From Candidatus Hydrogenedentota bacterium (GTDB taxonomy: Bacteria; Hydrogenedentota; Hydrogenedentia; Hydrogenedentales; JAGMZX01), in contig JAKQEQ010000100.1 of NCBI GenBank assembly GCA_029556545.1, positions 1-43,737 on the forward strand: a stretch of DNA of 43,737 bases. Reading direction: 5' to 3'. The notes beneath the pieces were generated by a model. The model was not told the origin of the DNA. It worked only from the letters and a program-made list of their open reading frames with translations, and made no database searches. A program made the translations under genes and the position numbers. Positions 4,030-8,215 of this stretch are shown in pieces. Positions within the stretch are counted from its first letter, which is position 1, and each line of letters opens with the position of its first letter.

Positions 4030-5427
4030 CTACTTCAGACTGTACAGCAGACGTCGCGCGGCCTCGGCCATTTCCTCTCCCCATCCGGGCCGAACACGCG
4101 CGCTGACCACCTCGTAGCTGTCTTCGGCAAACCCCTTCGCCGTCGGGATGTAGGAAGGGTAGCTGTTCGCGAGTTCGACCACGAGTGTCGTGGCGAAGGG
4201 AGAGGCTTTCTTGATACTCATGCCGAGTTCGACAAAGACCTCGCCCGGCAGGAAGATGATGGCGGCATCGTCACTCAGGCGCACGACTTGCACGTCGAGG
4301 GGAACGGTGTCGCCGGGCGCGGCGGCGAGATGGAGCACGCGCCGTGCGTGGACATTGTCCAGAAACGGCGTCTTGCCCTCGCGGAGCCGCTTCGCCGTCT
4401 CCTTCGCGGCGGCCAATTCCGCGTCGGAATAGGGGCGTTTGGGCGCCTCGACCACGGCACGGGCGATACCGAGCGCGGGGCGTTCAACGGGGCGTAAGCC
4501 GGGCTCCGCCGCAATGACCGCTTCGGCCAGCGCGGCGCCGATGCGCTCCGGTTCGGATACTCCCTTCTGGGGTTCGTTGTGGCTAACATCGATGTGGTTG
4601 ATGTCGCCGCAAGTACCCGTGCCAAAAAAGGAAATCAGATCATTCCCGAGTTTCTCCCGCAGAAAACGCTGCAGATAGGCCGGGTAATCGCCCGAGTATT
4701 CCGTGCCGCCGGTCGTGTCGAGGTGCAGCGCAAAGGACGTGAAGAGCGCCCCGGGCCCGCCCGCGGCGTCGCTGAAGTGAAGTAACCCAACCTCCGTATC
4801 GACCGGCCCGGCGGGCCGCACAATGTCCGGGTTCATTTTACCGGGGTTGCAGCGGACGGTTCCGTCTTTCATGTAGAAGCGGCGGTTGAACGCGATGTTA
4901 TCGAGCGTTCCGACGCCGTGGCGCACTTGCACGGGCCGCGCCGCCGCGTCCGCCTCCGCGACCGCCGCCACGATCCGGTCGCGGAGTTCCGCTTCATAGG
5001 CCGCCGTCTGCGTCTCGATGGCGTCGGGTTCGGCGTCGGGGTCATCCTTGAAAAAGCGCTGCATATCGCCATAGAGCGGGCCGGTGTGCGTATGCGTCGC
5101 CGTGAGAACCACATGATCGCCCGGGATGCCGCGCTCGGCCTCGATGCGCGCGCGCACGTCGCGCGTCAGCGTCTCGTCAATGCCGAGCAGGTCGCAGCAG
5201 ACGATTGCGGCGGCGGTGTCGCCTTGGCGCAGCACCATCGCCTTGGCCAGCAGCGGGTCCTTGATTCCCGAGGCCAGCCGTTCGCTGAAATAGCCGCTCA
5301 TGCGAATGCCGAGCGGCGGCGTGATATCGACGATTGCGAATCCCGCGCGCAGGTCCTGCGCATTCTCGGCGATGCCGAGCAGCGGAAGGAGAAGAAGCGA
5401 AATAGAGATACTTGCCTTGAGTCGCAT
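4030..5427 (-). CDS. Neutral/alkaline ceramidase-like exported hydrolase
   Basis: An exported protein of 465 residues resembling the N-terminal domain of neutral/alkaline non-lysosomal ceramidase. The start at 5427 was chosen over the longer frame because AGAGGA precedes it and a signal peptide follows at once (MRLKASISISLLLLPLLGIAENA). Family motifs include DITPPLGIRMSGYF (N-terminal strand), a zinc-site type THTHTGP (111-117), GTCGDINH and GDYPAYLQRF. True ceramidases are around 650-700 residues with a C-terminal Ig-like domain, which is absent here, so the substrate may not be ceramide. Many short homologues of this kind occur in environmental bacteria (family knowledge). It is followed by a terminator-like hairpin and preceded on the same strand by the M28-like gene, 124 bp away. 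Confidence 0.85.
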   Translation of the reverse strand: MRLKASISISLLLLPLLGIAENAQDLRAGFAIVDITPPLGIRMSGYFSERLASGIKDPLLAKAMVLRQGDTAAAIVCCDLLGIDETLTRDVRARIEAERGIPGDHVVLTATHTHTGPLYGDMQRFFKDDPDAEPDAIETQTAAYEAELRDRIVAAVAEADAAARPVQVRHGVGTLDNIAFNRRFYMKDGTVRCNPGKMNPDIVRPAGPVDTEVGLLHFSDAAGGPGALFTSFALHLDTTGGTEYSGDYPAYLQRFLREKLGNDLISFFGTGTCGDINHIDVSHNEPQKGVSEPERIGAALAEAVIAAEPGLRPVERPALGIARAVVEAPKRPYSDAELAAAKETAKRLREGKTPFLDNVHARRVLHLAAAPGDTVPLDVQVVRLSDDAAIIFLPGEVFVELGMSIKKASPFATTLVVELANSYPSYIPTAKGFAEDSYEVVSARVRPGWGEEMAEAARRLLYSLK

Positions 5428-5551
5428 GGTTCCATCCTCTCGATTGGTCTTCCCGCCAGATGCCACCATGGCCCATTGTGGCAGAACCGGCTCGAACAAC
5501 GCCACGGCTGCTCGCACCCTGGAGCGCTCGCGACGTGATGACGGGCAAGAA

Positions 5552-6739
5552 TCAGGGCTGCGAGTCTTCCAGCCTTCGCAGCAGCGCTTCGCAGAAGTCG
5601 GCGGCGTTCGCGATGGCGGCGTCATCGACCTCGGTGAGCACGTCCGTGAGCCAGTTCCAGTGCGGCGGCACGCCGGTCTCGTCCAGGCCCATGACGCTCA
5701 TGGTCTGGTAGCCGCGCGCGAAGGCCATGTGGGCTGCGGAAGGGATGGCCCGCAATCGCGCCGGGGAGGCGTCGTGGCGGGCGGCCACCCCCTCGGCGGC
5801 CTCGACGAGGGGCGCGGCGCTCGGGGTAACGTGGAGCATGCCTTCGCCCGTGATGTAGTGCAGCTTGCCCGCGCCTACGCCTTCCACGTTGAGGATGAAG
5901 GTGCGCTTCTTATCGAGGGCGTGCGTGGTAAGGAGGTGGCGCAGCCCGGCCATCCAGGATTCATGCCCGCCCGTCGCCGTGAGCCAGACATCCGCGCGCA
6001 GGGGCGGTTGCGCCGCGAAGCGATCCGCAAGGCGCAACAGCGCCGCGACGCCCGAGGCGTTGCAATTCGCGCCGCGGATTTCCTCGCCCGTCAGCGCGGT
6101 GAAGAACAGCGCGGCGGCGGCGGAAAGCAGGAAACCGACGGCCCCCCAGCGCACGGCAAGGTGCACGGGCGGCTGGTCCGCCCCGAAGACGTGGAGCGCA
6201 TCTACCGCGCAGGTGGCCAGGATGATCACCATGCACGCGACGACGCCCAGGTGCAGGGGGCGCAGCCACTGGGTGACGGCGGGCCGCGAAAGCGGCGACG
6301 CGCGCCCGCTGTCATAGTGGGCGGCGACGATAAAGAGGTAGTGCGGCTCGTCTGCGAGAAACCGCGCAACGACGTTCTGCGATTGGAAATGGGGGAGGAG
6401 CCGCGAGAAGAGGGGAAACCCGAGGAACTCGGCAAGGTACGTCAGGAGCACGCACGCGCCGTAGCACAGGGCCGCCCGGGGCCACCAGACGGCGATAACG
6501 GCGACCACCAGGAACTCGCAGTAATACGACGCGAACAGATAAAAGGGGTTCTCGATGGCCCTGAACTCGTCCACCTCGACGTCCGACACGCTCTCGCGAA
6601 AACGATTGCGGATGTACACCGCCGCGAGGCGCTCCTGCTCGGTAAGCGCACCGCGATGGATCAACTCGCCCGCGAGATAGTGCATATCGTTATGGATGCG
6701 TTCCTGCTGCACGTAAAACCTCGTGGTAATCCATTTCAA
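5552..6739 (-). CDS. Membrane M28-like peptidase homologue with substituted active-site residues
   Basis: A 395-residue protein with an M28 aminopeptidase-like fold interrupted by membrane helices. Helices lie at about residues 65-105 (two) and again at 160-185 and 195-215, between the first and second metal motifs. Motifs: VAAHYDSG (H141, D143) is intact; the usual bridging-Asp motif GANDNASG reads GANCNASG (Cys226); the usual catalytic EE pair reads HE (259-260); the later metal ligand is Glu286 in NVEGVG; His337 and His360 are at expected places. Loss of the bridging Asp and catalytic Glu argues for an inactive or chemically altered member. The start shown is TTG at 6739, 37 nt after a predicted start site; GTG at codon 10, with CGAGG before it, or ATG at codon 19 are alternatives. 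It is divergently transcribed from the Gfo/Idh/MocA gene. Confidence 0.75.
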   Translation of the reverse strand: MKWITTRFYVQQERIHNDMHYLAGELIHRGALTEQERLAAVYIRNRFRESVSDVEVDEFRAIENPFYLFASYYCEFLVVAVIAVWWPRAALCYGACVLLTYLAEFLGFPLFSRLLPHFQSQNVVARFLADEPHYLFIVAAHYDSGRASPLSRPAVTQWLRPLHLGVVACMVIILATCAVDALHVFGADQPPVHLAVRWGAVGFLLSAAAALFFTALTGEEIRGANCNASGVAALLRLADRFAAQPPLRADVWLTATGGHESWMAGLRHLLTTHALDKKRTFILNVEGVGAGKLHYITGEGMLHVTPSAAPLVEAAEGVAARHDASPARLRAIPSAAHMAFARGYQTMSVMGLDETGVPPHWNWLTDVLTEVDDAAIANAADFCEALLRRLEDSQP

Positions 6740-6782
6740 GGGAGATGGCGACGGTCTTGCGCTTCAGACGGCGGCCGCATCG

Positions 6783-6811
6783 AGTATAGCGGGCGCGCGG
6801 CGTCGCGGCAA
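6783..6811 (-). promoter_or_regulatory. Predicted sigma70-type promoter of the M28-like gene
   Basis: On the minus strand TTGCCG (6811-6806) and TATACT (6788-6783) are separated by exactly 17 bp. Transcription would start near 6776, giving a leader of about 37 nt to the TTG start at 6739. Confidence 0.55.
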
Positions 6812-6889
6812 TCCGACGGGCAGCCGAGGATGTCGCGGAAGAGACGCGGCGTATAGCCGCTCGGCGTCACGTGCCGCCGCGGCGCCGAC

Positions 6890-6918
6890 TGGACACGGGG
6901 AACACCATCGCCTATCAT
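6890..6918 (+). promoter_or_regulatory. Predicted sigma70-type promoter of the Gfo/Idh/MocA gene
   Basis: TGGACA (6890-6895) and TATCAT (6913-6918) are 17 bp apart, giving a start near 6925 and a leader of about 70 nt. A start codon at 6917 would lie within the -10 element, which supports the start at 6995. Confidence 0.5.
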
Positions 6919-6994
6919 GGCGTCGATCGGGCGTGATTCGTGGGAACAGCAATGCAATGTCGCCGCTCCATCGGGCGGCGCGGAGGGAAAGAAC

Positions 6995-8215
6995 ATGGCG
7001 GAACAATCGTTATCGCGGCGCGGGTTTCTGGCGGCCTCCGGGTTGGCCGTGGGCGCGGGGCTGGCGATGCCCCGGTCGGTCTTCGGCGCGAACGACCGGC
7101 TGCGCGTCGGCATGATCGGCACGGGCGACCGCGGCGGCGCGTTGATGCACGAGATTGGGCGGCTGCGCGCGTCGCACAACGTCGAGGTGGTCGCCGTGTG
7201 CGACGTGTGGCGGCCCAACCGCGAGGGGGCGGCCGCGCGGGTCGAGAAACTGTTCGACAAGAAGCCGTTCCAGACGACCCGCTTCGGCGACGTACTCACG
7301 CGCGACGACGTGGACGCGGTCGTCATCGCCACGCCGGACTTCGGGCACACGCCGATCATGATCGAGGCGCTCAAAGCGGGCAAGGACGTATATGTCGAGA
7401 AGCCCATGTCGCTGACCATCGAGGAGGCCACCGAGGCGCTCGACCTCGCCCGCGAGCACGACCGCGTGGTGCAGGCGGGCACGCAACGCCGCAGCGAAGG
7501 CCGCTGGAAAGCGGCGCGCGCGTTCATCGCCACGGGCGTGCTGGGCCACGTGAGCCGCATCTCCGCCGCGAACTGCTTCAACCAGCCCCGTTGGGCGCGC
7601 AACTTCGACAACTGCAAGGAAGAGGACGTGGACTGGGACGCCTACCTCTTCAACCGTCCGAAAGTGCCCTTCGACCCGAAGCTCCTGCGGCGCTGGCACC
7701 TCTACCGCATGTGCACCAACGGCATTTCGGGACTGTGGATGGCGCACCTGATCGACGCGGCGCATCTCGCCATGGGCGCGCGCTACCCGAACAGCGCCGT
7801 CGCCCTCGGCGGCATCTACCTGTGGAAGGACGGGCGCGAACACACGGACGTCTTCCATGCGCTGCTCGATTACCCGGAGGGCTTCCTCTTCAACTGGTGC
7901 ATGGGCCTCACCAACTCCGCCGGATCGCACTACACCATCCACGGCCAGTACGGCACGCTCGACATGGAGCGCGCCACGTATTCCGGCGACGGCGTCGAAA
8001 GCGGCCAACGCATCGAGGCGGGCGCGCTCGAAGCGGTCCCGAACGAGGACCACATGGCGAACTGGCTCGAGTGCGTCCGCGACCGGCGGCGGCCCAACGG
8101 CGACATCGAATTCGGTCATCAACATGCGGTCGCCACCATCATGGCCGCGCACGCCCTCGATACCGGCCAGCGCATGCGCTACGACCCGGAGCAGCGCAGG
8201 ATGTTCGCCGGGTAA
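6995..8215 (+). CDS. Gfo/Idh/MocA family oxidoreductase, Tat-exported
   Basis: An NAD(P)-dependent sugar or polyol dehydrogenase-type protein of 406 residues. The start at 6995 has GGAGGG 8 nt upstream and opens a twin-arginine signal (SRRGFLAASG, residues 7-16, then a hydrophobic stretch to FGA), so it is probably exported folded with its cofactor. The Rossmann loop reads GMIGTGDRGG (39-48), the nucleotide-fold edge VVAVCDVW (65-72), and the family EKP motif is VYVEKPM (133-138). The C-terminal alpha/beta substrate domain follows. Tat-exported members are abundant in planctomycete-like bacteria (family knowledge); the sugar is unknown. A G+C-rich hairpin follows the stop directly. Confidence 0.93.
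   Translation: MAEQSLSRRGFLAASGLAVGAGLAMPRSVFGANDRLRVGMIGTGDRGGALMHEIGRLRASHNVEVVAVCDVWRPNREGAAARVEKLFDKKPFQTTRFGDVLTRDDVDAVVIATPDFGHTPIMIEALKAGKDVYVEKPMSLTIEEATEALDLAREHDRVVQAGTQRRSEGRWKAARAFIATGVLGHVSRISAANCFNQPRWARNFDNCKEEDVDWDAYLFNRPKVPFDPKLLRRWHLYRMCTNGISGLWMAHLIDAAHLAMGARYPNSAVALGGIYLWKDGREHTDVFHALLDYPEGFLFNWCMGLTNSAGSHYTIHGQYGTLDMERATYSGDGVESGQRIEAGALEAVPNEDHMANWLECVRDRRRPNGDIEFGHQHAVATIMAAHALDTGQRMRYDPEQRRMFAG

Follow-up and report, generated by a model that had tools for sequence, protein, structure and literature searches.

A probable membrane pseudopeptidase with an M28-like domain, retained across the Hydrogenedentota

A gene in a Candidatus Hydrogenedentota genome, an intact frame on the minus strand, encodes an M28-like membrane protein in which residues of the peptidase site have been exchanged. 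This raises the question of whether the protein is still an enzyme, has been kept for another purpose, or is the product of a decaying gene. An earlier note, made from the letters of the DNA alone, offered two answers: a pseudoenzyme that serves in binding or as a scaffold, or a site in which the metal or the chemistry is different. We examined the gene within the window, that is, the whole stretch of 43,737 nucleotides that was analysed (contig JAKQEQ010000100.1). The gene and a promoter-like site are located as follows:

5552..6739, minus strand: M28-like gene, an open reading frame of 395 aa from TTG 6739
6783..6811, minus strand: promoter-like site with 9/12 consensus matches (consensus match only)

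Residue numbers are counted from TTG 6739. The real start is probably GTG 6712, giving 386 aa, because GAGG at 6722-6719 lies 6 nt ahead of it and the family profile match also opens there. This start had been missed in the earlier note, as had the helices at residues 65-85 and 87-105 and the exchange at Asn362 described below. The promoter had been called strong. A minus-strand site does exist at 6811-6783, and two such sites (one per strand) were counted over 1.8 kb where shuffled sequence gave 0.2 (sd 0.6), but this is only modest evidence.

Pfam Peptidase_M28 (PF04389) was the sole domain found in the protein, matching residues 219-384 with 49.9 bits against a cut-off of 21.3. The NCBIfam model PRK10199 reached 20.8 bits, far under its cut-off of 298. 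Searching the sequences of solved structures with this one protein gave chance matches only (E 0.016 and above), and a first contig scan with the same single query returned no relative. An AlphaFold2 model was built from an alignment of 46 orthologues (46 of 48 family members, leaving out L028 and L042) and predicted an M28 fold with confidence (pLDDT 95.2, pTM 0.92). Profile and fold together place the protein in peptidase family M28. Structure comparison (VIA) gave the aminopeptidases of B. subtilis (BSAP, 6hc6; Z 31.8, rmsd 3.4, 276 aligned), AM-1 (2ek8; Z 31.3, rmsd 4.6, 293 aligned), Streptomyces (1tf9; Z 30.2, rmsd 2.3, 245 aligned) and Aeromonas (1amp; Z 29.8, rmsd 3.0, 260 aligned), followed by a glutaminyl cyclase (7d18; Z 29.0, rmsd 2.7, 256 aligned) and the transferrin receptor (3kas; Z 27.3, rmsd 2.6, 256 aligned). 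None of the titles in the VIA list names a membrane-split M28 protein; as the list serves only as a supplementary check, this absence carries no weight.

According to the model and to hydropathy, the protein has four membrane helices in all, in two pairs:

6425..6547, minus strand: first membrane helix pair, TM1 at residues 65-85 and TM2 at 87-105 (AlphaFold model, hydropathy)
6089..6265, minus strand: inserted membrane helix pair, residues 159-181 and 192-217, which splits the M28 domain (AlphaFold model, hydropathy)

The first pair precedes the H-x-D motif, and in the model the second follows the H-x-D strand and comes before the GANxNASG helix, the arrangement of a membrane-split M28 protein. 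Two helices splitting the domain between the first and second metal motifs had been proposed from the sequence, and the prediction agrees. Lys and Arg are scarce in both hairpin loops (means of 0.08 and 0.52 per sequence) and more frequent in the domain-side flanks (1.04-2.21). Moreover, hydropathy revealed no hydrophobic stretch ahead of residue 64 and no signal peptide. These features suggest that the M28-like domain most likely lies in the cytoplasm.

Alignment assigned the residues of the active site as follows:

6311..6319, minus strand: His141-Tyr142-Asp143, first metal motif, kept (alignment)
6062..6064, minus strand: Cys226, replacing the bridging Asp (alignment with intact relatives)
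5960..5965, minus strand: His259-Glu260, catalytic Glu changed to His, metal Glu kept (alignment)
5882..5884, minus strand: Glu286, metal ligand position kept (alignment)
5654..5656, minus strand: Asn362, replacing the last metal His (HWN versus YYH/HYH in intact relatives)

At the six key positions the protein therefore reads His141, Cys226, His259, Glu260, Glu286 and Asn362, against His, Asp, Glu, Glu, Asp/Glu and His. The exchanges at 226 and 259 were those already named in the earlier note, as was the retention of the His141-x-Asp143 pair and of Glu260, the second-motif Glu. Of the five metal ligands (His, Asp, Glu, Asp/Glu, His), three are kept, which falls short of a two-metal peptidase. 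The Glu that precedes the metal Glu has the catalytic role in M28 peptidases, and it is His259 here. On these residues, the M28-like domain would be unable to assemble a two-metal catalytic site and would probably lack activity.

Is this loss peculiar to one copy? Strong matches to the family (127 bits or more) were found in 57 of the 68 genomes of the phylum, and 35 of the 38 good-quality genomes within the first sample of 60 had a match. A strong match was absent from 11 of the 68, three of them of good quality (G012, G016 and G018); some members of the phylum therefore manage without the gene. Residues were counted in 53 of the 57 strong-match genomes, omitting G002, G043, G053 and G061, which held fragments only. 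Position 259 is His in 29 of these orthologues, Lys in 15, Asn in 5, Ser in 3 and Gln in 1, and Glu in 0/53. At position 226 there are 12 different residues, Asp in 13 sequences and Cys in just 2, the latter confined to the window's genus. His stands at 141 in 30/53 and the last metal His (position 362) in 1/53, and not one of the 53 has the complete set of five ligands. Neither Cys226 nor His259 is thus conserved family-wide, the point that the earlier note had proposed to check in homologues; close homologues with normal motifs, named there as grounds for refutation, were sought among the 53 and did not turn up.

The variation at these positions is ordinary for the family. The mean entropy of the six catalytic columns over the Hydrogenedentota rows was 2.14 (median 2.20), and six random columns were as low in 54% of draws. 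Asp143 is present in 52/52 Hydrogenedentota tree rows. It is fixed in the clade together with Asn227 and with glycines in the old loops, as would fit a structural role. NG86 estimates of dN/dS were 0.075-0.198 in 10/10 pairs. The gene is therefore maintained under purifying selection and decay is excluded, in line with the earlier view that it is not decaying.

To place the loss, relatives with an intact site are informative. A second M28 gene with the same four-helix layout, hereafter the A2 paralogue, is present in 33/68 Hydrogenedentota genomes (34 were listed, but the match in G065 falls on the window-family gene). Among the 20 of 33 paralogue rows that were fetched, 19 have a complete site and the remaining one carries Lys at the catalytic Glu position. 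The six catalytic columns are the most conserved of the paralogue (entropy 0.21 vs 1.82; random columns as low in 0/5000). The copy with Lys (L101:899-2077, minus strand, genome G022) has L103 as its nearest relative, which keeps the Glu, and its exchange appears to be a recent single-residue change. Among the matches listed, relatives of the paralogue include many in Bacillota and one in Omnitrophota. Outside rows nearer to the window family came from a Bacillota class (4/97 genomes, 175-260 bits; a fifth match there has its higher score against the paralogue profile), and the phylum of G069 supplied others (51/282 genomes at E <= 1e-24). In the phylum of G068, 0/14 genomes matched at E <= 1e-24. 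The type-B relatives outside the phylum, of which we fetched 43 of the 52 listed matches (from another listing, 9 of 80 loci were used), carry the same helix pair between H-x-D and GANDN.

We built a tree of 128 of the 135 rows with the key columns masked; L206, L220, L238, L195, L170, L249 and L255 were dropped as short or duplicate, and it is a quick tree with long branches. All 52 Hydrogenedentota rows group together as a single clade (SH-aLRT 98), whose sister consists of three Bacillota rows: L205 is intact, L203 differs at the key positions by Glu-to-Lys only, and L204 is more degenerate. The 43 type-B rows comprise 28 intact and 15 broken ones. The tree requires at least 6 changes between intact and broken, and although this count gives no direction, it suggests that the site was probably lost recurrently within the membrane-split subfamily. 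Five broken type-B rows from the phylum of G069 (L233, L244, L247, L251 and L254) form a separate clade with Pro for the first metal His, a gap at the last metal His, and the Asp after the first His kept. The helix insertion predates the loss of the site. The notion that the insertion broke the enzyme is ruled out, since the intact paralogue and the outside relatives share the layout. The splitting membrane pair is thus real, as had been noted, but unrelated to the loss.

Residues peculiar to the Hydrogenedentota clade point to another part of the protein. Two of them were scored against an outside comparison set of 80 rows, those that can be scored at positions 75 and 93:

6515..6517, minus strand: Glu75 in TM1, clade-specific (acidic in 53/53 Hydrogenedentota rows, 0/80 outside)
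6461..6463, minus strand: Tyr93 in TM2, clade-specific (53/53 Hydrogenedentota rows, 0/80 outside)

The residues fixed only in the clade cluster in the first membrane pair (Tyr72, Glu75, Phe76, Val79, Tyr93 and Gly94). This amounts to 6/15 clade-specific columns within 10% of the protein's length (Fisher p 0.002), a pattern noticed after the fact, with both the 15 columns and the region 65-105 chosen post hoc. Column 72 is His in 39/80 outside rows and also in 13/15 broken type-B rows; this His in the first membrane helix occurs in many rows of L208-L215 and L221-L255, intact or broken. Because it is common there, in broken rows too, the first helix may be important outside the phylum as well. 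Glu75 and Tyr93 are single clade-specific residues that are open to test.

Taken together, we read the protein as an ancient membrane pseudopeptidase, with a cytoplasmic, non-catalytic M28-like domain and a putative role in binding or scaffolding, at a probability of roughly 0.7. The fold is kept under selection and the active site is lost in all 53 sequences examined across the phylum, which supports the pseudoenzyme of the earlier note beyond the single copy. The ancestor would have been an active, membrane-split M28 peptidase. Catalysis would have disappeared no later than the root of the Hydrogenedentota clade, with the protein retained since then for a non-catalytic job. That job is most likely to bind a protein or peptide and keep it at the membrane, in the manner of a scaffold, adaptor or substrate receptor, using the retained M28 cleft, the TM1-TM2 face with its six clade-specific residues, or both. 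We found no description of this Hydrogenedentota family in the literature searched. It would represent a bacterial, phylum-wide case of a non-catalytic M28-fold membrane protein, a kind familiar from eukaryotes (GPAA1, nicastrin, transferrin receptor). Its intact relatives of the same layout, together with the broken lineages outside the phylum, would allow the change from exopeptidase to binding protein to be studied in the membrane.

How does the protein compare with known members of the fold? The M28 aminopeptidases (1amp, 1tf9, 6hc6 and 2ek8) are alike in fold, but the window protein has an incomplete site, four membrane helices with one pair inside the catalytic domain, and no signal peptide. 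The closest in layout are the membrane-split A2 paralogue, with its relatives in Bacillota and Omnitrophota, and the type-B relatives. They share the four helices and differ in having a complete site in 19/20 and 28/43 rows, respectively, with no acid at 75 and no Tyr93. The glutaminyl cyclases, the single-zinc branch of M28, are similar in fold; their zinc ligands are Asp, Glu and His, and they have a catalytic Glu besides. The window protein has Cys226, Asn362 and His259 at three of these four positions and so does not belong with them. Nicastrin and the transferrin receptor carry a non-peptidase M28 fold as an extracytoplasmic domain on a single-pass membrane protein, and that domain, unlike the one described here, is not split by membrane helices. 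The best-described parallel would be GPAA1 of the GPI transamidase. One report describes GPAA1 as a membrane protein whose M28-like domain has no zinc motif; substrate recruitment is proposed for it, and mutation of its candidate zinc residues had no noticeable effect (PMC9098846). Another paper models it as a single-zinc enzyme (PMC7522609). GPAA1 differs from the window protein in its lumenal domain, its different membrane part and its place in a eukaryotic complex.

Several other explanations were weighed against the pseudopeptidase. For the whole family, the different metal or chemistry once suggested for Cys226 and His259 fails, given a Cys226 in 2/53 and a variable position 259. Within the window's own clade, a remodelled site is the main rival to a simple dead relic, although we consider it unlikely. 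Here His141, His259, Glu260 and Glu286, perhaps joined by Asn362 or His360, would hold a single metal or an organic ligand for other chemistry or for sensing. The local clade does keep Glu260, Glu286, Trp361 and Asp366 in 12/12 rows and His259 and Asn362 in 10/12. However, His141 is Tyr in 5/12 of these rows, position 226 takes at least four residue types, and the mean entropy of the six columns is not unusually low even locally (random columns as low in 15%), while phylum-wide these columns vary like any others. The same exchange at the catalytic Glu, E151H, was reportedly the subject of work on the Aeromonas aminopeptidase by Bzymek in 2005. The title of PDB entry 2anp calls the E151H enzyme "functional", a point in favour of a remodelled site and equally of a protein that is still a peptidase, with His259 as general base and the remaining ligands holding enough metal for slow turnover. 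Given this title, His259 alone is no proof of death, and the additional losses carry most of the weight. The mutant changes a single residue, whereas the window protein also loses the bridging Asp and the last His; Asn or Lys occupies those positions in 14 to 15 clade rows, and the full ligand set is found nowhere among the 53. We therefore regard residual peptidase activity as improbable.

A shade less probable still is that the protein serves as the non-catalytic partner of the intact paralogue in the same genome, in the manner of active/inactive protease pairs. The two share an identical layout, and both genes occur together in 30/68 genomes. Yet 27 genomes have only the window-family gene and 3 only the paralogue (8 have neither), a distribution that an obligate partnership does not fit, and in the window genome the two lie on different contigs (C179 and C66) and are not adjacent. 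Three changed active-site residues might have raised the suspicion of gene decay or of one isolated degenerate copy, but this has next to no probability: the frames are intact, comparable loss is seen in 53/53 sequences, and this survey and the low dN/dS refute it. We return to the pseudopeptidase with one tentative variation, which we find possible rather than likely: its working centre may have shifted. As the metal cleft lost its function at the origin of the Hydrogenedentota, a membrane-embedded TM1-TM2 cluster of Glu75, Tyr72 and Tyr93 would have become the invariant functional core, with the dead domain as a cytoplasmic arm, making the protein a membrane receptor, adaptor or conductor.

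The surroundings of the gene were compared at 22 loci, and no conserved neighbour of the window copy was found among them. The next gene downstream (4030-5427, minus strand) is ceramidase-like (Pfam Ceramidase_alk, E 2e-13). Its likely start is ATG 5427 and not ATG 5625 of the ORF list, and from there the protein would begin with a signal-peptide-like stretch. The divergent neighbour (6917-8215, plus strand) encodes a Gfo/Idh/MocA oxidoreductase whose TAT-signal match is weak. Operon logic with these neighbours was rejected: ceramidase-like relatives lie near 3/22 loci and Gfo/Idh genes near 2/22, at other distances. An open frame of 518 aa (5300-6856, plus strand) runs antisense across the whole M28-like gene and had no Pfam match. 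Its BLAST matches fall antisense to the orthologue at 17/22 loci, so it looks like the mirror of a conserved coding sequence in G+C-rich DNA. Elsewhere, the gene beside the orthologues is often of the phosphomannomutase, alanine dehydrogenase, fmt or dtd type, as named from translation starts only.
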